Origin: Jiangella gansuensis DSM 44835 | Lineage (GTDB): Bacteria > Actinomycetota > Actinomycetes > Jiangellales > Jiangellaceae | NCBI RefSeq assembly: GCF_000515395.1 | Contig: NZ_KI911782.1 | Coordinates: forward strand, 124,001 to 188,000 | Reading direction: 5' to 3' | DNA: 64,000 nt | Notes under the pieces: generated by a model | The model's input: only the letters and a program-made list of their open reading frames with translations | What the model was told of the DNA's origin: nothing | Databases searched by the model: none | Made by a program: the position numbers and the translations under genes | Shown here: one piece after another, positions 1,104-48,547 of the stretch | How positions within the stretch are numbered: the first letter of the stretch is position 1 | How the letters are laid out: every line of letters starts with the position of its first letter

Positions 1104-2114
1104 ATGGAATCGGCAACAGCCGATGAACTCGACAGGCTCGTCATCGCGGCCCTGCTGGCACACCCGCGGGCCACCAACGCCACCATCGGCCAGGCGGTGC
1201 GCAGCTCCGAGGCCACGGTGTCGCGGCGCATCGCCCGGCTGCGCCGTCAGGGTGCCGTCCGGGTGGTCGGCGCACTGGACTCGCAGCTCAGCCACCGGGC
1301 CCGGTCGGTCTTCGTGCGGCTGCGCTGCGCGCCCGGCGCCGCCGACGAGCTCGCCCGGCCGCTGGCGTTGTGGGACGAGACAGGATCGGTCAAGGTGCTC
1401 ACCGGCAGCGTCGACTGCGTGGCCGAACTCGCCTACACGTCCAACGAGCACCTCTACCGGCTCATGATGCACCGGCTGCCGCAGTTCGACGGCGTCATGT
1501 CGACCTTCAGCAACCAGGTGATCCGGCGCTTCTCCACGCCGCACGGCTGGAACCCCGGCATCCTGCCGGACGACGTCGTCGCCGCGCTGCGGGCCGAGCG
1601 GCACGACCGCTGGGACGAGCAGCCCGAACCGGCCGAGGTCTCACCGATGTCCCGGCTCGACGAGCGGATCATGCGGGAACTCGTCGTCGACGGGCGGATG
1701 AGCTGGCAGGACCTCGCGCACCGCTGCGAGGTCACGCCGAGTACCGCGCGCCGCCGGGCCGAGTCCCTGATGTCCAGGGGCTTCCTGCGGATGCGTACCG
1801 TCGTCGAACCCGAGATCCTGGGTCTCACGGTGAACGCCTTCGTCTGGCTGACCATCAACCCCACCAAGATCGGGCTGGCCGGCGAGATGCTCGCCAAGCA
1901 CCGCAACGTGCTGATGATCGCCGCGACCACCGGAGACCGGAACCTGTGCGGCGAGATCGCCGTCGACAACGACAGTGCCCTCTACGACTTTCTCTCCGAG
2001 ACCATCGGCCACCTGCCCGGGCTGCTCCACGCCGACGTCGCCGTCGCCCTGCGCACCGTCAAGCGTGCCGGCAAGGTGGTGCCCGACCTCCAGCCCGCCG
2101 AGACCGCCACCTGA
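1104..2114 (+). CDS. Double-module Lrp/AsnC family transcriptional regulator
   Basis: The protein has 336 residues and two successive AsnC-like units. The first winged HTH (about residues 25-55, ATIGQAVRSSEATVSRRIAR) is followed by a RAM-like ligand domain. A second HTH (about 181-225, RLDERIMRELVVDGRMSWQD) is followed by another effector-like region. Ordinary Lrp proteins are about 150 residues, so this is a tandem fusion, a known actinobacterial type. ATG 1104 was chosen because it has a weak GGCGGGTGAT upstream and begins just before the HTH; ATG 1089 is in frame and possible. It is divergent from the solute-binding lipoprotein, so local control of that transporter is a reasonable inference. 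Confidence 0.85.
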   Translation: MESATADELDRLVIAALLAHPRATNATIGQAVRSSEATVSRRIARLRRQGAVRVVGALDSQLSHRARSVFVRLRCAPGAADELARPLALWDETGSVKVLTGSVDCVAELAYTSNEHLYRLMMHRLPQFDGVMSTFSNQVIRRFSTPHGWNPGILPDDVVAALRAERHDRWDEQPEPAEVSPMSRLDERIMRELVVDGRMSWQDLAHRCEVTPSTARRRAESLMSRGFLRMRTVVEPEILGLTVNAFVWLTINPTKIGLAGEMLAKHRNVLMIAATTGDRNLCGEIAVDNDSALYDFLSETIGHLPGLLHADVAVALRTVKRAGKVVPDLQPAETAT

Positions 2115-2237
2115 CACCCGCCATCGAGCTGGCTCGCCGGTCCGGATGGTACGTACGGTTGAACACAGCCGGAACTCCGGCCGGATCCTGCGTATCTCGC
2201 GCGCCGATAGGGGCTGGCGAGGACTAATCTCGAGTCC

Positions 2238-2792
2238 ATGCACGAAAGCAATGCTGCGCACGATGCCGTGCGCCGCGATCCCATAACCATCGTTCCGTAC
2301 GACCACACGTGGGCCGAGTCCTTCGAGCAGCAGCGTCAGGCCGTCGAGCCGGCGCTGCGGCCCTGGCTGATCGGCGCCGTCGAGCACGTCGGCAGCACGG
2401 CCGTGCCGGGCCTGCCCGCGAAGCCGATCATCGACATGATGGCCATGGTGGCCGACTACGAGCAGGCCCGCGACGCCATTCCCGCCATGGAGGCCATCGG
2501 CTGGACCTTCGTGTGGGAGGACGGCGACCACGAGCTGCGGCGCTGGTCGTTCTGCCATCCCGACCCGGCGTGGCGGACCCATCACCTGCACGTCGTCGAG
2601 TACGTGTCGCAGTTGGGCCGCGACTGCCTGGCCTTCCGTGACCACCTGCGCCACCACCCCGACGACGCCGCCTCCTACGCGGCGGTGAAGCGGGACCTGG
2701 CGGCGCTGCACCATGACGACCGGCCGGCATACCGGGCGGGCAAGGCGCCGTTCATCGAGGACATCATGCGCCGCGCCTCCGTGCAGCACTGA
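2238..2792 (+). CDS. GrpB/UPF0157 family protein (nucleotidyltransferase fold)
   Basis: The 184-residue protein carries the family signature HVGSTAVPGLPAKPIID near residues 48-64, with the Gly-Ser and Asp of a nucleotidyltransferase-like active site. GrpB proteins are found alone or fused to dephospho-CoA kinase, but their biochemical role is not settled. It is a single gene with a 13-bp inverted repeat 25 nt behind its stop that could end transcription. Identification of the family is firm; the function is unknown. Confidence 0.85.
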   Translation: MHESNAAHDAVRRDPITIVPYDHTWAESFEQQRQAVEPALRPWLIGAVEHVGSTAVPGLPAKPIIDMMAMVADYEQARDAIPAMEAIGWTFVWEDGDHELRRWSFCHPDPAWRTHHLHVVEYVSQLGRDCLAFRDHLRHHPDDAASYAAVKRDLAALHHDDRPAYRAGKAPFIEDIMRRASVQH

Positions 2793-2817
2793 CCCGCCGC
2801 AACCGCTCACCCCCCCG

Positions 2818-2867
2818 TGATCATCAACCGCTGGGTGCGCCATGACGCCGCCAACGGTTGATGATCA
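2818..2867. terminator. 13-bp perfect inverted repeat, likely terminator
   Basis: TGATCATCAACCG (2818-2830) and its exact reverse complement (2855-2867) enclose a 24-nt spacer. It lies between the GrpB gene and the dehydrogenase. There is no clear T-run. The TGATCATCAAC half recurs at 19629 and 20090, so this may be a repeat as well as a terminator. Confidence 0.5.
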
Positions 2868-2896
2868 AGGGAATGCGGCCCGATACTCTGGCGGGC

Positions 2897-3862
2897 GTGA
2901 TGGCGACGAGCTCGGCACGGGCGGCGAACGGTGTGCTCCAGGTCGGTCCACTACATCCCACCGTCGAGCGTGAACTGACGACGCTCGGGGCGCGGCGGCT
3001 GCCTGACGGCCCCGATGCGGCGCAGTTCCTGGCCGCGCAGGGCGAGCACGTCACGGTCGTCGTCACCAGTGGCGGCACCGGGGTGGACGCCGGACTGATG
3101 GCGGCGCTGCCGAAGCTGGCCGCGATCATCAACTTCGGGGTGGGCTATGACGCCACCGACGTCGACGCGGCCAGGGCCCGCGGGGTCGCGCTCAGCAACA
3201 CCCCGGACGTGCTCACCGACTGCGTCGCCGATATCGCCGTCGGCGGCCTGATCGACGCGGTGCGCGGGCTGTCGGCCGCCGACCGGTTCGTACGCCGCGG
3301 TGAGTGGGCCGATGGCGGCCGGTTCCCGCTGATGACGCGGGTGACCGGAATGCGGGTCGGGATCCTGGGCCTGGGCCGCATCGGCCTGGCCGTGGCCCGG
3401 CGGCTGGAAGGCTTCGACGCGCGGATCTCGTATCACAGCCGCAACCAGGTGGCCGGGGTCTCGTACGCCTACGCCGCCACCCCGGCCGAGCTGGCCCGCG
3501 ACGCTGACGCCGTCATCGTGACGACGCCGGGCGGGGCAGCCACCCGCGGGCTGGTGTCGGCGGAGGTGCTCGACGCGCTCGGCCCGCGCGGCTACCTGGT
3601 GAACGTGGCCCGCGGCAGCGTCGTCGACGAGCAGGCTCTGGTCGCAGCGCTCTCCGCGGGCCGCATCGCGGGGGCGGCGCTGGACGTCTTCGAGGCCGAG
3701 CCACAGGTGCCGGCCGCGCTGATGGATTTCGACTCCGTCGTGCTGCTGCCCCACATCGGCAGCGGAACGCACGAGACGCGCGAGGCGATGGCACAGCTGG
3801 TGCTGCGCAACCTCCAGCAGTTCCTGACCGACGGCACACTGGTGACGCCGGTGCGGCTTTAA
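2897..3862 (+). CDS. D-isomer specific 2-hydroxyacid dehydrogenase
   Basis: The 321-residue NAD(P)-dependent oxidoreductase has a Rossmann motif GILGLGRIG (about residue 157). The catalytic set of the family is visible: Arg in NVARGSVVDE, Glu in FEAEP and His in LLPHIGSGTHE. The substrate may be glyoxylate/hydroxypyruvate or another 2-ketoacid; the sequence does not decide. TACTCT (2884-2889) sits 7 nt before GTG 2897, which suggests a leaderless transcript; ATG 2900 is the alternative start. The amidohydrolase follows after 7 nt, so the two are probably cotranscribed. Confidence 0.88.
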   Translation: MMATSSARAANGVLQVGPLHPTVERELTTLGARRLPDGPDAAQFLAAQGEHVTVVVTSGGTGVDAGLMAALPKLAAIINFGVGYDATDVDAARARGVALSNTPDVLTDCVADIAVGGLIDAVRGLSAADRFVRRGEWADGGRFPLMTRVTGMRVGILGLGRIGLAVARRLEGFDARISYHSRNQVAGVSYAYAATPAELARDADAVIVTTPGGAATRGLVSAEVLDALGPRGYLVNVARGSVVDEQALVAALSAGRIAGAALDVFEAEPQVPAALMDFDSVVLLPHIGSGTHETREAMAQLVLRNLQQFLTDGTLVTPVRL

Positions 3863-17270: not shown

Positions 17271-19631
17271 ATGGACGCAGATCACACCGGCCGCATTGCA
17301 ACGCTCGGCGCCACCAGCCGGCGCGGAGCGCTCGCGGTTCGGGCTCGTCTGGTCGGCGCCTTGGTCGCCGGGCTGGCGGTGCTGCCGCTGCTGCTGGCCG
17401 GCGCGGCCGCACCGGCCACGGCCTCGATGGCGCCGGAGACCCCGGCAGCCACGCCCGCGTCCACGCCAGGTGACCCAACGCCGGCCGCCGCGGTCGACCA
17501 GCCGAACGTCGTGTTCCTCGGCATCGCAGGACTGTCCTGGCCCGATGTCACCGCCGCAGACACCCCCACGCTCTACGAGATGGCCGGATCCGACGCCGCC
17601 GGCTCGCTCACCGTGCGCACTGTCCGCCCGCGCACCTGCGTCATCGACGGCTGGCTGACGGTCAACTCCGGCCGGCGCTCCACCGACCTCATGGACACCG
17701 ACGCCGACGGCGAGGGCGACCGGTTCTGCCGGCAGGTCCCCGACCCGCAGCCCGACGGAGCCGGCGGCGCCACGGTGCCGGGATGGGAGGCCCTGGCCCA
17801 GCAGCAGGACGACAACTCCTACAACGCGCAGATCGGGCTGCTGGGCGACCGGCTCGCCGAGGCCGGCATCTGCGCCACCGCCATCGGCCCCGGCGCCGGC
17901 ATGGCGCTGGCCACCTCGACCGGCCATCTCGCGTCGTACCTGCCGTTCTCCAGCGAGATCGACCGCCAGCTGCTGAGCCGGTGTCCGGTCACCGTCATCG
18001 ACCTGGGCGGCCTGCCGCCCCCGGCTCCGGCCGGCAGCGACGAGGCCACCGTCGAGGCCGCGTTGGAGACCCGTCGGCAGGTCGCGGCCGGCGTCGACCA
18101 GCTGGTGGCGCGCGTCCTCGACGAACTCCCTCCCGACACCGCGCTGATGATCGCCGGGCTGTCCGACAGCGCGCCGACGGCCGTCCCGCTGCCCGACGAG
18201 CCGACCCCCGTCCCGCCGGCCGGCCTGCGCGCGGCGTTCGCCACCGGGCCGGTGCCCGAAGGCGACGGTACATTCGGCGCGAACTGGCTGACGTCGTCGT
18301 CGACGCGGTGGTCCGGGCTGGTGCAGCTGACCGACGTCGCGCCCACCCTGCTCACGTACGCCGGCGTGGAGGATCCTGCCCGCGACGTCGCCGGCCGGCA
18401 CTGGGGCCCAGGGGACCCGCATCCCGGCACGGCGGCGGGCACGGTCTCCGAACTGAACGGCGTCGACCGGGCCGCGCAGATCTACCGGGTGCAGTCCGGA
18501 CCGTTCTTCCAGGTGCTGGGCATCGTGCAGGTCATCGTGTTCGCCGCCGCGATGCTGGCGCTGCGCCGGCGCTCCTCCTATGGGTCGACGGTCCTGCGGG
18601 TGGTGCAGGTGGTCGCGGTCGCTGCCGCGGCCGCTCCCGTGGCGTCCTACCTGGCCAACATCACCCGCTGGTGGAAGTACGACCAGCCGAACCTCGTGCT
18701 GTGGACGGCCATCGTGGTGTCCACGATGGCCCTGACCGTCGTGGCTCTCGCCGGGCCGTGGCGGAAGCGCGCCTACGGTCCCCCGGGCGTCGTCGCCGGT
18801 GTCACCGCCACCGTGCTGGCCGCTGACGTCGCCAGCGGGTCGACCCTGCAACAGTCCAGCCTGCTGGGGCTGTCGCCGCTCGTGGCTGGGCGCTTCTACG
18901 GCTTCGGCAATATCCCGTTCGCCATCTTCGTGGTGGCCAGCCTGGTCGCCGCCGCCGCACTGGGCCAGTACCTCATCGACAGCGGGCGGTCGCGCCGGTT
19001 CGCCGCCACCGCCGTCGGCCTCATCGGACTGATCGCGGTGGTCGTCGACGGCGCCCCGCAGGCCGGCGCCGACGTCGGCGGCATCCTGGCGGCCATCCCC
19101 GGGTTCGCCGTGCTCGTACTGGGCACGCTGGGCGCCCGGGTCACGGTGGCCCGGGTAGCGCTGGCCGGGCTCGGCGCGGCGGTGCTGTTCGGGCTGTTCG
19201 CGTTCGCCGACTGGTTGCGGCCGGCCGGTTCCCGCACCCACTTCGGCACGTTCTTCGACGACGTGCTGACCGGCGACGCGCTCACCGTCATCCTGCGTAA
19301 GGCCGAGGCGTCCATCGGCACGCTGGAGCGCTGGCCGATCTACGGCCTGCTGGTGCCGTTGGCGTACGTCCTCATTCTGTGGCTGACCCGCCCCGGCGGG
19401 GTGGCCGCCATGACGGCGACGCTGCGGCACTTCTCGCTGATGCGGTACATGGTGTGGTCGGCGCTGCTCGCCGGGGCGGCCGGCTTCGCGGCCAACGACT
19501 CCGGCATCATCATCCCGGCGCTCCTGCTGACGGCCGGCGTCCCGCTGGGGGTGGCCGCGGTGGCGGCGGCGCAGCGACTGTCTCCGGTGCCGGCGCGCGA
19601 CGACGCCGACCTGGTCGCCCCGACCCGCTGA
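17271..19631 (+). CDS. Large membrane protein with alkaline-phosphatase-like ectodomain
   Basis: The 786-residue protein has a first hydrophobic helix (about 28-50), a Pro/Ala/Thr-rich linker, an extracytoplasmic domain (about 75-400) beginning PNVVFLGIAGLSWPDV and containing LTDVAPTLLTYAG, a pattern seen in alkaline phosphatase/sulfatase folds, and then about ten membrane helices (from about 411 to the end). I know it as a conserved actinobacterial membrane protein of unknown role, perhaps in the cell envelope. TACGGT 8 nt before ATG 17271 and no SD suggest a leaderless start. The stop codon is the TGA of TGATCATCAACG. Confidence 0.7.
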   Translation: MDADHTGRIATLGATSRRGALAVRARLVGALVAGLAVLPLLLAGAAAPATASMAPETPAATPASTPGDPTPAAAVDQPNVVFLGIAGLSWPDVTAADTPTLYEMAGSDAAGSLTVRTVRPRTCVIDGWLTVNSGRRSTDLMDTDADGEGDRFCRQVPDPQPDGAGGATVPGWEALAQQQDDNSYNAQIGLLGDRLAEAGICATAIGPGAGMALATSTGHLASYLPFSSEIDRQLLSRCPVTVIDLGGLPPPAPAGSDEATVEAALETRRQVAAGVDQLVARVLDELPPDTALMIAGLSDSAPTAVPLPDEPTPVPPAGLRAAFATGPVPEGDGTFGANWLTSSSTRWSGLVQLTDVAPTLLTYAGVEDPARDVAGRHWGPGDPHPGTAAGTVSELNGVDRAAQIYRVQSGPFFQVLGIVQVIVFAAAMLALRRRSSYGSTVLRVVQVVAVAAAAAPVASYLANITRWWKYDQPNLVLWTAIVVSTMALTVVALAGPWRKRAYGPPGVVAGVTATVLAADVASGSTLQQSSLLGLSPLVAGRFYGFGNIPFAIFVVASLVAAAALGQYLIDSGRSRRFAATAVGLIGLIAVVVDGAPQAGADVGGILAAIPGFAVLVLGTLGARVTVARVALAGLGAAVLFGLFAFADWLRPAGSRTHFGTFFDDVLTGDALTVILRKAEASIGTLERWPIYGLLVPLAYVLILWLTRPGGVAAMTATLRHFSLMRYMVWSALLAGAAGFAANDSGIIIPALLLTAGVPLGVAAVAAAQRLSPVPARDDADLVAPTR

Positions 19632-19640
19632 TCATCAACG
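19629..19640 (+). repeat. TGATCATCAACG motif overlapping a stop codon
   Basis: This 12-mer includes the TGA stop of the membrane-protein gene. The 11-mer TGATCATCAAC recurs at 2818 (as half of an inverted repeat) and at 20090. It is a short motif, of interest mainly because it recurs near gene ends. Confidence 0.45.
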
Positions 19641-19763
19641 ATTCCCGAGCCGGTGGACAGGCTCTCGTGGGCTTGCAACGAGCAGCTGGTTGAGCCGCTG
19701 GACTGGAGACCGGGTGGTGTTCTCGTAGTGGCCGCGCGGCCACGGGCTGTGGGGTCGCGGCGG

Positions 19764-20065
19764 GCCTTTGCAATGCACACCTATACGCAACACCGCTGGC
19801 TCAGCCTGGCACGGCCGCTCTGCCGGCAACACTCCGCCCGTGAGCCGGGGCGTCGGCGTGCGCCGGTTGGGCGATCCACCGGGCCCGGCGGTCCGACCCT
19901 CGACGGGCGCGGCTTTGGCGGGTGGTTTGGTGGCGTTCTGGGCCCACCAGACCACCCGCCATCGTCATCGGAAGGTCGCCGCGCGCCTTGCCCAGGCTGG
20001 GCGCGAATCGGCCGGACGGTGTGCCGGGCCCGCAGGTGTTGCGTATAGGTGTGCATTGCAAAGGC
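19764..20065. mobile_element. MITE-like element with 31-bp perfect terminal inverted repeats
   Basis: The 31 bp at 19764-19794 (starting GCCTTTGCAATGCACACCTA) are exactly inverted at 20035-20065, giving a 302-bp unit. Inside, TGGCGGGTGGTTTGGTGG (19916-19933) pairs with 19944-19961 with one G-T mismatch around a 10-nt loop. No transposase is encoded and I see no target-site duplication. The gap between the membrane protein and glycosyltransferase genes (19632-20150) is otherwise gene-free. Whether it moves cannot be told from one copy. Confidence 0.6.
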
Positions 20066-20089
20066 GCCGGCACCGAACGGAAGACCCGG

Positions 20090-20102
20090 TGATCATCAAC
20101 GG
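20090..20102 (+). repeat. TGATCATCAACGG motif
   Basis: This is the third occurrence of TGATCATCAAC, 25 nt outside the right end of the MITE-like element. With 19629 it flanks the element on both sides in the same orientation. Confidence 0.4.
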
Positions 20103-20150
20103 TGTCCGGCGCCATACAAGCCCCCGAACCGTTTATGCTCACGGCTGCGC

Positions 20151-20906
20151 TCAGCGGGTGCGGAACCGCGCCGGCGCCGCCGGCCGGATCCCTCGCGTCA
20201 CCAGCGCCCTCATGACGTGCGCATACTGCTTGCCACGGTGGACCTGAGCCTTGAGGTCGGTGCCGGTGACGCGGTGATGGAACTCCACGTCCACCTCGGT
20301 CACCCGGAAGCCCTGCCGCAGCAGGTCGATGGTGAGGCCCGTTTCGACGCCGAACCCCTGCGCCAGCGGGAGTGCCGCCTCGAACGCGGCGCGGGTGAGG
20401 CAGCGCTGGCCGGACAGCGGCTGGGTGGCGGTCCAGCCGGTGGCGCGCTCGATGCCCGTGCGCGCGAGGTCGACCACCAGCCCGCGGCCGCCACCCTCGG
20501 TGCGCTGTGCCGGCAGGATGCCGATGGTCATGTCGGCCTCGTCGGCGAGGATCGGCTCGACCAGGGGCTGCGCGCCGGCGGCCGTGTCCTCCAGGTCGGC
20601 GTCCAGGAACAGCAGCGCCCGGGGTCCAGTGCGGGACGACTCCCTCGACTCGATGGCGCTCAGCGCGGTAGCGCCGGTTTCCATCGCGGCCGCCTTGCCC
20701 CGGTTGCGCGCGTGCCCGACGACGACGGCGCCGGCGGCCTGTGCCGTCGCCGTCGTGCGGTCGGTGGAGCCGTCGTCGACCACGATGACGACGTCGACGC
20801 CCGGGATCCCGCGGGTGGCCTGCACCGTGGCCGCGATCCGGTCCTGTTCGTCCTTGGCGGGGATGATCGCGGCGACACCGTCCACGCGACGCTCCAGGTT
20901 CGTCAT
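20151..20906 (-). CDS. GT-A family 2 glycosyltransferase
   Basis: The 251-residue soluble enzyme has the GT2 start VAAIIPAKDEQDRIAATV, the nucleotide-sugar Asp pair in VVDDGSTDRT, and the metal-binding LLFLDADLEDT. It has no membrane helices. It resembles glucosyl-3-phosphoglycerate synthase-like and dolichyl-phosphate-type transferases but is shorter than the former; the acceptor is unknown. TAAGCT lies 7 nt before the ATG, and the divergent arginine deiminase starts 83 nt away. Confidence 0.8.
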   Translation of the reverse strand: MTNLERRVDGVAAIIPAKDEQDRIAATVQATRGIPGVDVVIVVDDGSTDRTTATAQAAGAVVVGHARNRGKAAAMETGATALSAIESRESSRTGPRALLFLDADLEDTAAGAQPLVEPILADEADMTIGILPAQRTEGGGRGLVVDLARTGIERATGWTATQPLSGQRCLTRAAFEAALPLAQGFGVETGLTIDLLRQGFRVTEVDVEFHHRVTGTDLKAQVHRGKQYAHVMRALVTRGIRPAAPARFRTR

Positions 20907-20913
20907 GCCCGCC

Positions 20914-20979
20914 AGCTTAGAGACCACGCGGCGGGTCGGCGTCCCGTACCGCCCGACCGCCCCGCCGGACGCGTAGCCT
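20914..20979. promoter_or_regulatory. Divergent -10 elements for the glycosyltransferase and arcA
   Basis: On the minus strand TAAGCT (20919-20914) lies 7 nt from the glycosyltransferase ATG. On the plus strand TAGCCT (20974-20979) lies 9 nt from the arcA ATG. Neither gene has an SD sequence, so both may be leaderless. Confidence 0.35.
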
Positions 20980-20988
20980 CTGCTCTCG

Positions 20989-22215
20989 ATGACTGCGTCC
21001 ACACTGCCCGCCGACGGCGCCGACTCCGAGGTCGGCCGGCTGCGCTCGGTCCTGCTGCACCGGCCGGGACCGGAGCTGAAGCGGCTCACGCCGCGCAACA
21101 ACGACACGCTGCTGTTCGACGGCATCCCCTGGGTCGGCCGGGCGCAGGACGAGCACGACGCGTTCGCCGACACGCTGCGCGCGCACGACGTCGAGGTCGT
21201 GTACCTGGCCGAGCTGCTGACGGCCACGCTGGAGATCGAGGAAGCCCGCCAGGAGTGCATCGAGTCGGTGCTGGCCGACCCGCGGCACGGCGACACGCTC
21301 CGCGGCGTCCTGCGCGCCCAGCTGGCCGGTCTGCACCCCGACGACCTCGCGCAGGTGCTGATCGCCGGCCTCGCGCACGAGGAGGTGCGGTCCGGTCGCG
21401 GGCTGCCCTACCGGCTCATGGACCGGCACGGCTTCGTCATCGACCCGCTGCCCAACCTGCTGTTCACCCGCGACTCCAGCGTGTGGATCGGCGACCGCGT
21501 CGCGATCACGAGCCTGGCCATGACCGCCCGGCGCCGCGAGACCAGCCTGACCGCGGCGATCTACCGCTACCACCCCCGGTTCGCCGGCGTCGGCACCGTC
21601 TACGGGCCGCAACTCGAGGACCTCGAGGGTGGCGACGTGCTGCTCCTGGCACCCGGTGTGGTGGCGGTGGGCACCGGCGAGCGCACCACCCCGGCCGGCG
21701 TCGAGCGGCTGGCCCGCAACATCCTGGAACCGGGCCTCGCGCACACCGTGCTGGCGGTCCCCATCGCCCAGGATCGCGCCACCATGCACCTCGACACCGT
21801 CTGCACCATGGTCGACGAGGATTCCGTGGTCATGTACCCGAACGTCGCCGACGAGCTGACGGCGGTGACGTTGCGCTGGGTGGACGGCGACATCGTCGTC
21901 GACGACGACCAGGCGCCGTTCGTCGAGGCAGCCGCCCGCGCCATGGGCATCGACGCGCTGCGCACCATCGAGACCGGCCTGGACCCCGTCACCGCGGAGC
22001 GTGAGCAGTGGGACGACGGCAACAACACGCTGGCCGTCGGGCCGCGGTTGGCGGTGGCCTATGAGCGCAACATCGAGACCAACGCCCGGCTCGAGGAAGC
22101 CGGCATCGAGGTGCTCCGCATCGCGGGCAGCGAGCTGGGCTCCGGCCGGGGTGGGCCTCGGTGCATGTCATGCCCGCTGCGCCGTGACCCGTTGCCGGCC
22201 ACGTCCGGCCACTGA
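20989..22215 (+). CDS. arcA: Arginine deiminase
   Basis: The 408-residue enzyme converts L-arginine to citrulline and ammonia. It begins [21 protein letters not shown] and contains [10 protein letters not shown], the [10 protein letters not shown] segment with the catalytic His, and the catalytic cysteine in [10 protein letters not shown] near the C-terminus. The length is usual for ArcA. No arcB or arcC lies next to it, so a full ATP-yielding deiminase pathway is not shown here; it may serve arginine use or acid protection. Confidence 0.93.
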
Positions 22216-46082: not shown

Positions 46083-47623
46083 CAGATGTCGCGGAACGGT
46101 TCGATGCGGGCGCCGAGCACGGAAAGCCGGGCCGCGAGGTCCTCGTAGCCGCGGTTGATGACGTAGACGTTGCGCAGCACGGACTCGCCCTTGGCGGCGA
46201 GCATCGCCAGCAGCACCACCACCGCGGGCCGCAGCGCCGGCGGGCAGATGATCTCGGTACCGGACCATCGGGTCGGCCCCTCGACCAGGACCCGGTGCGG
46301 GTCCAGCAGTGTGACGTTGCCGCCGAGCTTCGTCAGCTCGGTCAGGTAGATCGCGCGGTTCTCGTACACCCAGTCGTGGATCATCGTCTGGCCGTTCGCA
46401 CTGGCCGCGATGAGCGCGAAGAACGGCAGGTTGTCGATGTTCAGGCCGGGGAACGGCATCGGGTGGATCTTGTCGTGCGGTGCCTGCAGTGTGGACGGCC
46501 GCACCGTCAGGTCGACCAGCCGGGTCTCGCCGTTCGCCGAGACGTACTCGGTGCTGCGGTCGTAGTCGAGGCCCATCTCCTCCAGCAGCGCCAGCTCGAT
46601 CTCGAGGAACTCGATCGGTGCGCGCTGGACCGTGATCTCCGACGACGTGACGATGGCGGCGGCCAGCAGGCTCATCGCCTCGATGGGGTCCTCGGAGGGC
46701 GCGTAGTCGACGTCGACGTCGATCTCGGACTTGCCGTGGACGGTCAGCGTGGTGGTGCCGATGCCGTCGATGCGCACGCCGAGCCGGGTGAGGAAGAAGC
46801 AGAGGTCCTGCACCATGTAGTTGGAGCTGGCGTTGCGGATGACGGTGACGCCGTCGTTGCGGGCGGCCGCCATCAGCGCGTTCTCGGTGACGGTGTCGCC
46901 GCGTTCGATCAGCACGATCGGGCGGGTCGGTGACGCCTTCCGGTCCACCTCGGCGTGGTAGTAGCCGCCGGTGGCCTTGAGCTCCAGGCCGAACGGGCGC
47001 AGCGCGGACATGTGCGGCTCGACCGTACGGGTGCCGAGGTTGCAGCCACCGGCGTAGGGGAGCTTGAAACGGTCCTCGCGGTGCAGCAGCGGGCCGAGGA
47101 ACATGATGACGCTGCGGGTGCGACGCGCCGCCTCGACGTCCATGCTGTCGAGGTCGAGCCGCTCCGGCTGGACGATCTCGAGGTCACGCCGGTCGCCCAG
47201 CCACCGCGTGCGGATGCCGATGCTCTCGAGCACCTCGATGATGCGGTTGACCTCTTCGATGCGCGCGATGCCGCGCAGCACGGTGCGGCCCTTGTTCAGC
47301 AGGCTGGCGCACAGCAGCGCGACGCTGGCGTTCTTGCTGGACCGGACGTCGATGCTGCCGGAGAGCTGTTGGCCGCCGCTGACCCGCAGGTGCGTGGGTC
47401 CGGGCTGGCCGAGTGAGACGATCTGCTTGTCGAGCGCCTCGCCGATGCGGGCGATCATCTCCAGGCTCAGGTTCTGCTGACCGTGCTCGATGCGGTGGAC
47501 CGCGCTCTGACTGCTGCCGAGGGCGTCGGCGAGCTGACTCTGGGTCCAACCGCGATGTTGTCGCGAGTCACGGATCAAGCGACCGATCCGGCCGCGGTAA
47601 TCGTCTGCCACGAGGCGAACCAT
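46082..47623 (-). CDS. XRE HTH fused to MurA-type UDP-GlcNAc enolpyruvyl transferase
   Basis: The 513-residue protein has an N-terminal XRE domain (about 10-70, RGWTQSQLADALGSSQSAVH) and an EPSP-synthase-fold MurA domain (about 75-510). The loop AGGCNLGTRTVEPHMSAL keeps the Cys that reacts with PEP and fosfomycin in MurA. It may make UDP-GlcNAc-enolpyruvate or a related product; a regulatory role for the HTH is likely. I recall similar fusions in streptomycetes as a second MurA. Confidence 0.82.
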   Translation of the reverse strand: MVRLVADDYRGRIGRLIRDSRQHRGWTQSQLADALGSSQSAVHRIEHGQQNLSLEMIARIGEALDKQIVSLGQPGPTHLRVSGGQQLSGSIDVRSSKNASVALLCASLLNKGRTVLRGIARIEEVNRIIEVLESIGIRTRWLGDRRDLEIVQPERLDLDSMDVEAARRTRSVIMFLGPLLHREDRFKLPYAGGCNLGTRTVEPHMSALRPFGLELKATGGYYHAEVDRKASPTRPIVLIERGDTVTENALMAAARNDGVTVIRNASSNYMVQDLCFFLTRLGVRIDGIGTTTLTVHGKSEIDVDVDYAPSEDPIEAMSLLAAAIVTSSEITVQRAPIEFLEIELALLEEMGLDYDRSTEYVSANGETRLVDLTVRPSTLQAPHDKIHPMPFPGLNIDNLPFFALIAASANGQTMIHDWVYENRAIYLTELTKLGGNVTLLDPHRVLVEGPTRWSGTEIICPPALRPAVVVLLAMLAAKGESVLRNVYVINRGYEDLAARLSVLGARIEPFRDI

Positions 47624-47926
47624 ATCTCAGCTATGAGTTAACTGGCGCCACATTCGTCACATTGGCCTCGGGTGAGTCGCACAGTGGGCGAACTCTCATG
47701 CGCCTCGTGAGGTGCGCACTTGGACGGCCGCGAAGAGGTGCCACATCTCTGACGCCGCTCGCCTGCCCGCCGTTCCCACGACTTCTGGAGACTTATGCAC
47801 TCTTCCGGGCCCGGTCAGCGTGCATAAGTCTCCAGAAGTGTGGACGACGGACCCCGCCGACGGCCGTCCGCACGGGCGCGGGACACTGGGCGCGTCGTGC
47901 GTCCATTCGAGCGACGAGGAGACAGC
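47624..47926. other. 303-bp divergent gap with a long hairpin
   Basis: The gap separates the XRE-MurA gene and the cyclohydrolase gene. CTCATAGCTGAG lies 3 nt before the MurA start and could be an XRE half-site pair. The hairpin at 47781-47839 fills the middle. No small gene is evident. Confidence 0.5.
47781..47839. repeat. 20-bp perfect inverted repeat with nested palindrome
   Basis: ACTTCTGGAGACTTATGCAC (47781-47800) and its exact reverse complement (47820-47839) enclose a 19-nt loop that itself contains CCGGGCCCGG. With one bulge the stem extends by CCAC/GTGG. It lies between divergent genes, so a terminator is not expected. Confidence 0.7.
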
Positions 47927-48547
47927 GTGCGCGATGTGCCGATCGGCGACTTCCTCGACAGCCTGGCCGACCGGGTGCCGGCACCGGGCGGTGGTGCCGT
48001 CGCGGCGTTGCATGCCGCGCAGTCGGCCGCCCTGCTCGGCATGGTCGCCCGCTACAGCACCGGTCCGACATTCGCCGAGCACGCGGATGTGATCGAGCGG
48101 GTGCTGGTGCGCGCCGACGCCCTGCGCGCCGACGCGCTGGAGCTGGCCGAGGACGACGCGGAGGCGTTCCGGGCTGTCACCGAGACGTACGGCCTGCCGA
48201 AGGGCACCGACGAGGAGAAGACGGACCGATCCGCGGCCATCGCGACGGCCCTGGCCGCTGCCGCGGAGCCGCCGGCGGCTGTCATCGTCGCGGCCATGCA
48301 CCTCGTGGCGATGGCCGAGGAACTGCTGCCCGTGGGCAACAGCAACGTCGTCACCGACGTCGCCGCTGCCGCCGACGCCGCGCGCGCGGCCGCCACGACG
48401 GCCCGGCTCAATGTCGAAGTCAACCTGACCGGTGTCACCGACGACGCGGTCCGCGAACGGCTGGAGGCCACGCTCGAAGAGGTGGACGACCTGGCCGCCC
48501 GCGCCGACCGGGTGACCGCCGCCGTCCGCGAGCGGATCGGGTCGTGA
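47927..48547 (+). CDS. Cyclodeaminase/cyclohydrolase family protein (FTCD_C, Fch-like)
   Basis: The 206-residue helical protein begins MRDVPIGDFLDSLADRVPAP with GGGAVAALHAAQSAALLGMV, the FTCD_C signature. The family includes formiminotetrahydrofolate cyclodeaminase and Fch, the methenyl-tetrahydrofolate cyclohydrolase of methylotrophs. GTG 47927 lies behind GAGGAG. Its stop overlaps the folD start, so the two act together; cyclohydrolase activity is the better guess since no histidine-degradation gene is adjacent. Confidence 0.82.
   Translation: MRDVPIGDFLDSLADRVPAPGGGAVAALHAAQSAALLGMVARYSTGPTFAEHADVIERVLVRADALRADALELAEDDAEAFRAVTETYGLPKGTDEEKTDRSAAIATALAAAAEPPAAVIVAAMHLVAMAEELLPVGNSNVVTDVAAAADAARAAATTARLNVEVNLTGVTDDAVRERLEATLEEVDDLAARADRVTAAVRERIGS

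Follow-up and report, generated by a model that had tools for sequence, protein, structure and literature searches.

Sequence element between two genes of Jiangella gansuensis

A 519-bp intergenic stretch of J. gansuensis (19632..20150 of the window, the whole 64,000-nt stretch of DNA analysed) holds two long inverted repeats, and the first-pass annotation left open whether these are the ends of a non-autonomous transposon or a pair of regulatory sites. The left repeat, GCCTTTGCAATGCACACCTATACGCAACACC, was placed by inverted-repeat search and family comparison at 19764..19794 on the forward strand, and its exact inverted copy at 20035..20065 on the reverse strand. They are complementary at 31/31 positions with a spacing of 240 nt (246 bp if measured between 25-bp arms), so the 31-bp perfect ends that had been annotated were recovered. 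We call these repeats T arms. The upstream gene encodes a hypothetical membrane protein (17379..19631, forward strand; start from our in-house gene caller), and the downstream gene a glycosyltransferase-like protein of 251 aa (20151..20906, reverse strand) that is kept in 12/12 Jiangella genomes. No gene was called between the end of the former at 19631 and the stop of the latter at 20151, in agreement with the gene-free gap described before.

Between the T arms we found a single 50-bp palindrome, GATGGCGGGTGGNNNGGTGG-N10-CCACCNNNCCACCCGCCATC (19914..19963, unstranded), that belongs to a dispersed family, H; it accounts for the 18-bp internal hairpin of the earlier annotation (19916-19933 / 19944-19961, 18 nt, 94%, loop of 10). 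The element is also flanked by a direct repeat of 26 nt, 85% identical, with both copies on the forward strand (19622..19647 and 20083..20108). The left copy overlaps the stop codon of the upstream gene and holds TGATCATCAAC, the word that had been noticed on both sides in the same direction and that is half of another palindrome, D (CCATGATCATCAAC..). When the window was scanned with the arm pattern allowing up to 3 mismatches, only the two arm positions matched, and the pattern appeared in 0/100 dinucleotide shuffles, which bears out the claim that the arms are beyond chance. An Rfam scan of 19000-21000 gave no match near any gathering score.

Distribution of the T family

The T arm is not confined to this locus. 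The J. gansuensis genome (G000; the other Jiangella genomes are G001 to G011) is one contig of 5,585,780 bp and contains 21 arms at up to 2 mismatches, so the further copies that the first-pass annotation had proposed to look for do exist. The same threshold recovered 136 arms in G001, 90 in G002 and 59 in G010, 1-5 in each of G004, G006, G007, G009 and G011, and 0 in G003, G005 and G008, while the reversed-pattern control gave 0 in all 12 Jiangella genomes. The family has a 25-bp arm core, TTTGCAATGNNCACCNATACGCANC, and arms of 25-31 bp. Among 393 genomes of the class, from 137 genera, matches were found in 13 genomes of two genera, Jiangella and Phytoactinopolyspora. The arm form of the latter was present in 37 stretches, all from P. 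halotolerans and P. alkaliphila, in a genome-collection scan that possibly left out records of the J. gansuensis genome itself. T is a Jiangellaceae-specific family of inverted 25-31-bp sites that are dispersed, paired, conserved in place and, in Jiangella, located for the most part at the 3' ends of genes. Our searches of the open-access literature listed no paper on it, and literal arm strings appeared only in papers of unrelated subject. The J. gansuensis genome paper (PMC5292007) does not contain "transposase", and has "palindrom" only in the title of a reference and where CRISPR is spelled out.

We retrieved 134 loci (L103-L236), which cover about 100 of the 136 arms of G001 and 50 of the 90 of G002 and, for these two genomes, are weighted to good matches. 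Together with the window they gave 280 arms, corresponding to 120 inverted pairs and 40 singles. Gene positions around them were taken from the in-house gene caller, and relatedness was ignored in the permutation controls throughout.

Spacing of the pairs and position relative to genes

Gaps between the 25-bp arms of the 120 Jiangella pairs fell into classes: 0 in 43 pairs, 10-12 in 42 and 19-22 in 11, with none of 1-9; the remaining gaps were of 14 bp, or of 24 bp and larger, and one pair overlapped. Orthologous loci swapped gaps of 0 and 10, 22 and 11, and 12 and 24, as well as 27/11 and 14/11. We considered helical phasing as proof of binding to double-stranded DNA and retained it only as a hint, since it is clear at 0 and 10-12 alone; Jiangella gaps of 13-34 bp taken by themselves were not significantly phased (p about 0.07), and the classes were absent among the 33 T pairs of Phytoactinopolyspora. 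Two loci (L191, L166) carried arms of the same direction in tandem arrays, with periods of 38 and 57 bp.

Of the 89 non-redundant T loci, 43 were flanked by convergent genes, 34 by tandem genes and 11 by divergent genes, and 1 fell within an ORF; convergent regions account for 15.6% of the intergenic background by length. At the tandem loci, 30/34 lay nearer to the upstream stop. In Phytoactinopolyspora 21/33 loci were tandem and only 5 convergent, so the preference for convergent genes belongs to Jiangella. A recurrent gene family beside T loci was also sought and rejected, the largest group, ABC-transporter ATPases, being the expected background. One T pair lies in frame within an amidohydrolase-like gene (L155, L234; G010, G001), where the base change of G010 described below alters amino acids.

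Conservation in place and a base change in G010

A tree of the glycosyltransferase region placed G010 and G001 as sisters, with G008 as sister to both. We identified 57 orthologous pairs of T loci. Arms of G002 and G001 were 94.5% identical, rising to 99.0% when positions 15-19 and 24 are set aside, and their flanks 68.4%, over 13 simple pairs; for G010 and G001 the values were 89.9% (96.6% outside the same positions) and 75.6%. Position 24 is T in 62/64 arms of G010, and C in 122/131 arms of G001 and 61/61 of G002. It differs in 47/50 orthologous G010-G001 arms, a count in which arms sharing a locus are not independent. The dinucleotide at positions 16-17 was kept in 26/50 of these arms, against a shuffled mean of 12.9 and with 0/5000 shuffles reaching 26; the retention of such locus-specific bases argues against re-insertion, overwriting or simple replacement of the arms. 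The change at position 24 seems, from these sequence comparisons, to be a co-change with a sequence-specific protein that reads the sites.

A linked HTH_3 gene

A gene for an XRE-type protein of 164 aa (HTH_3, PF01381) was intact in 5/22 Jiangellaceae genomes (G001, G002, G006, P. alkaliphila G218 and P. halotolerans G194). In G000 it was broken, and the remaining 16/22 had weaker HTH matches or none. T arms were present at most about 340 bp upstream of all six copies; the intact ones come from two genera and different loci. At the intact genes they form an upstream pair in Jiangella and enclose the gene in both Phytoactinopolyspora, the upstream arm of P. alkaliphila having 3 mismatches, and the broken copy has one arm beside it. 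G006 contains 3 T arms in 7.9 Mb, two of which form an exact pair at the promoter of the XRE gene. Across the 17 genomes from both genera that carry T, an intact gene coincided with many arms in 4/5 genomes, and 10 of the 12 genomes lacking one had few or no arms, the two with many being G000 and G010.

The solved HTHs matched by the XRE protein include those of HipB and HigA. AlphaFold2 gave a confident model for the HTH only; the C-terminal half, modelled with low confidence, is better conserved than the rest of the protein and matches no named family. The T arm is only weakly symmetric for an XRE dimer, a point against this protein as its reader. A search for relatives of the protein in plasmids and phages found none. 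Upstream of the XRE gene and its paralogs, paired NNNTCCACA words, mostly about 29 bp apart, were present in 11/14 cases against 2/1200 background windows; in these pairs (L330-L340) we presume a resemblance to DnaA boxes. Several paralogs (L337, L339, L342, L351, L353, L338) had upstream palindromes or palindrome arrays of their own, of the GCTGGAGNTCTGC type.

Other palindromes in T slots

H is a separate dispersed 50-bp family with compensatory changes in its arms and stands alone or between T arms (in G000, G007 and others); of the 16 H copies of J. gansuensis, 7 (at 6 loci) have a T arm no more than 200 bp away. Two further palindrome families, D and E (GTTGATCTTGGAG..), fill intergenic slots where relatives have T (L253-L257, L365, L367; G008, G005). 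Four T clusters in a 100-kb stretch of G001 correspond in G008 to a D, an E, 10 bp replacing 50, and 19 bp, and the E slot of G008 is occupied in G010 by a D palindrome. A slot beside a PadR gene holds T with the XRE gene in G001, G002 and G006, and a single T arm adjoining the broken XRE gene in G000; D palindromes stand there in G005 and G008 and half of one in G003 and G009, while G007, G010 and G011 have neither T nor D, although the G011 locus ends early.

What the T pairs may be

We consider that the T pairs are operator-like sites which have spread and which the linked XRE protein probably reads, and give this reading a probability of about one half, on the basis of sequence comparison. 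Between the two readings of the first-pass annotation, conservation in place, the genome-wide base change and the linked HTH gene favour regulatory ends. Both arms of a pair would be double-stranded sites for a sequence-specific DNA-binding protein, and the likeliest binder would be the HTH_3 (XRE) protein, beside whose gene T arms stand wherever it is intact. Going further, bound pairs at gene ends might form boundaries or roadblocks, the XRE gene might be autoregulated through the pair at its promoter, and the copies might have spread. Against the XRE protein as binder, G010 has no XRE ortholog, yet its 59 arms are still under constraint, so that a different protein must bind them in that species, unless XRE does not bind T at all; moreover, G006 has the gene but just the 3 arms, and the window arms are perfect though the J. 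gansuensis gene is broken. The missing gap classes and convergent bias in Phytoactinopolyspora also count against the operator-like reading. A more far-reaching version, which we regard as speculative, is that the HTH_3 regulator and its paired operator form a self-spreading unit: the operator would have been copied to dozens of slots at gene ends, where the protein reads it as a boundary mark in species dialects, and D or E could take over these slots once the system is lost. If true, this would be an analogue of REP/RAYT built from regulator and operator and lacking a transposase.

The T pairs may instead be MITE- or REPIN-like miniature mobile elements, with arms that are transposase-recognised ends and copies that are selfish remnants. 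The dispersal of T, its patchiness between close relatives, its occurrence as singlets, pairs and tandem arrays, and its intergenic and 3'-end bias, which PMC3733652 describes for REPs, are all in line with this, as are the inverted arms that enclose the XRE gene in P. alkaliphila and P. halotolerans. As to a possible autonomous parent, the listed loci that were read show this gene between arms in the two Phytoactinopolyspora, and no transposase ORF was noticed between arms. We found no insertion sequence or transposase with the same ends; the Y1 transposase domain (Y1_Tnp, PF01797) was detected in 0/12 Jiangella genomes against 5/14 controls, and target duplications of 2-12 bp showed no excess over permuted flanks at 120 pairs, the 26-bp repeat around the window copy being a single case. 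Together with conservation in place and a base change made genome-wide while locus-specific bases were kept, this renders the mobile-element reading, and with it the transposon of the first-pass annotation, rather doubtful. We also rejected insertion into pre-existing terminator hairpins, as the locus-specific complementarity of the flanks equals that of the permuted control.

Less probable still are RNA hairpins at transcript 3' ends, working as bidirectional terminators or mRNA stabilisers. Their location close to stop codons and in convergent intergenic regions, stems of 25-28 bp with short loops, and the two T slots of G008 that hold other palindromes (D or E) would fit such a role. Yet most of the 123 mismatches between paired arms are not wobble pairs of a single strand: 58 would pair on neither strand, 41 on one and 24 on the opposite one, irrespective of gene direction; they are concentrated at positions 1 and 15-19; the flanks of T pairs contain no T-run; and a base change common to all loci is unexpected for terminators. 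The idea that the change in G010 is mutational, for instance a methylated C decaying to T, at otherwise passive sites, seems to us the least plausible: it is a C to T change in a genome without the XRE gene, but the other C positions of the arm are unchanged and the contact positions are kept in G010, as the identity outside positions 15-19 and 24 relative to the flanks indicates.

If the operator-like reading is right, dispersed palindromes at gene ends can be sites read by a protein, as opposed to junk or RNA elements, and a genome-wide base change in place between sister species is evidence for such sites. A concrete candidate reader, the XRE gene, and relatives with and without the sites make the role of palindromes at gene ends testable.

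Comparison with known systems

DNA uptake sequences of Neisseriaceae form pairs at gene ends, as T does. T is longer and much rarer than these and has no link to uptake. It shows, like their dialects (PMC3630211), a coordinated change of the repeat between related species. With MITEs, T pairs share identical terminal inverted repeats around an unrelated interior or none, without an ORF; they differ in the missing target duplication and parent insertion sequence and in the many copies with zero interior. REP and REPIN elements consist, according to PMC3733652 and PMC3116915, of short palindromic units that are dispersed through intergenic regions as inverted pairs and biased to gene 3' ends and convergent genes, and T resembles them in being dispersed, intergenic, paired and 3'-end biased. 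Unlike them it has arms of 25-31 bp, and the single unit is neither an imperfect palindrome nor itself a hairpin (5/12 positions of the long internal dyad pair in Jiangella); unlike REPIN-RAYT systems it comes with no Y1 transposase, is conserved in place between species and is linked to an HTH regulator. As in operators of autoregulated HTH_3 (XRE/HipB-like) genes, paired inverted sites are found in the promoter of the HTH_3 gene, and a site adjoins the regulator gene at 5/5 intact genes and at the broken one, but T sites are also found at tens of other places, most of them 3' ends. Intrinsic terminators differ from T in their strand-consistent pairing and T-run.

The window copy in relatives

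In G004, the closest relative of J. gansuensis in the tree, the same two genes are separated by 17 bp instead of 519 bp; gain in the window and loss in G004 cannot be told apart from this single relative, as the other 10 Jiangella genomes have a different gene at the site and no T arms there. The first-pass annotation held that a unique copy conserved in all relatives, with no insertion sequence sharing its ends, would speak against its reading; the window copy proved neither unique nor conserved, and still no such insertion sequence was found. The remaining J. gansuensis arms differ from its 24-bp arm core, which is identical to arms of Phytoactinopolyspora. Because the XRE gene is broken and the T family small and degenerate in J. 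gansuensis, the window copy is probably a relic, which holds the second palindrome family, H. Elsewhere in the window, D half-sites (at most 1 mismatch) cluster at 1849-3123, with others at 19629 and 20090, and another palindrome, ACTTCTGGAGACTTATGCAC, with 20-bp arms, lies between divergent genes at 47623-47927.
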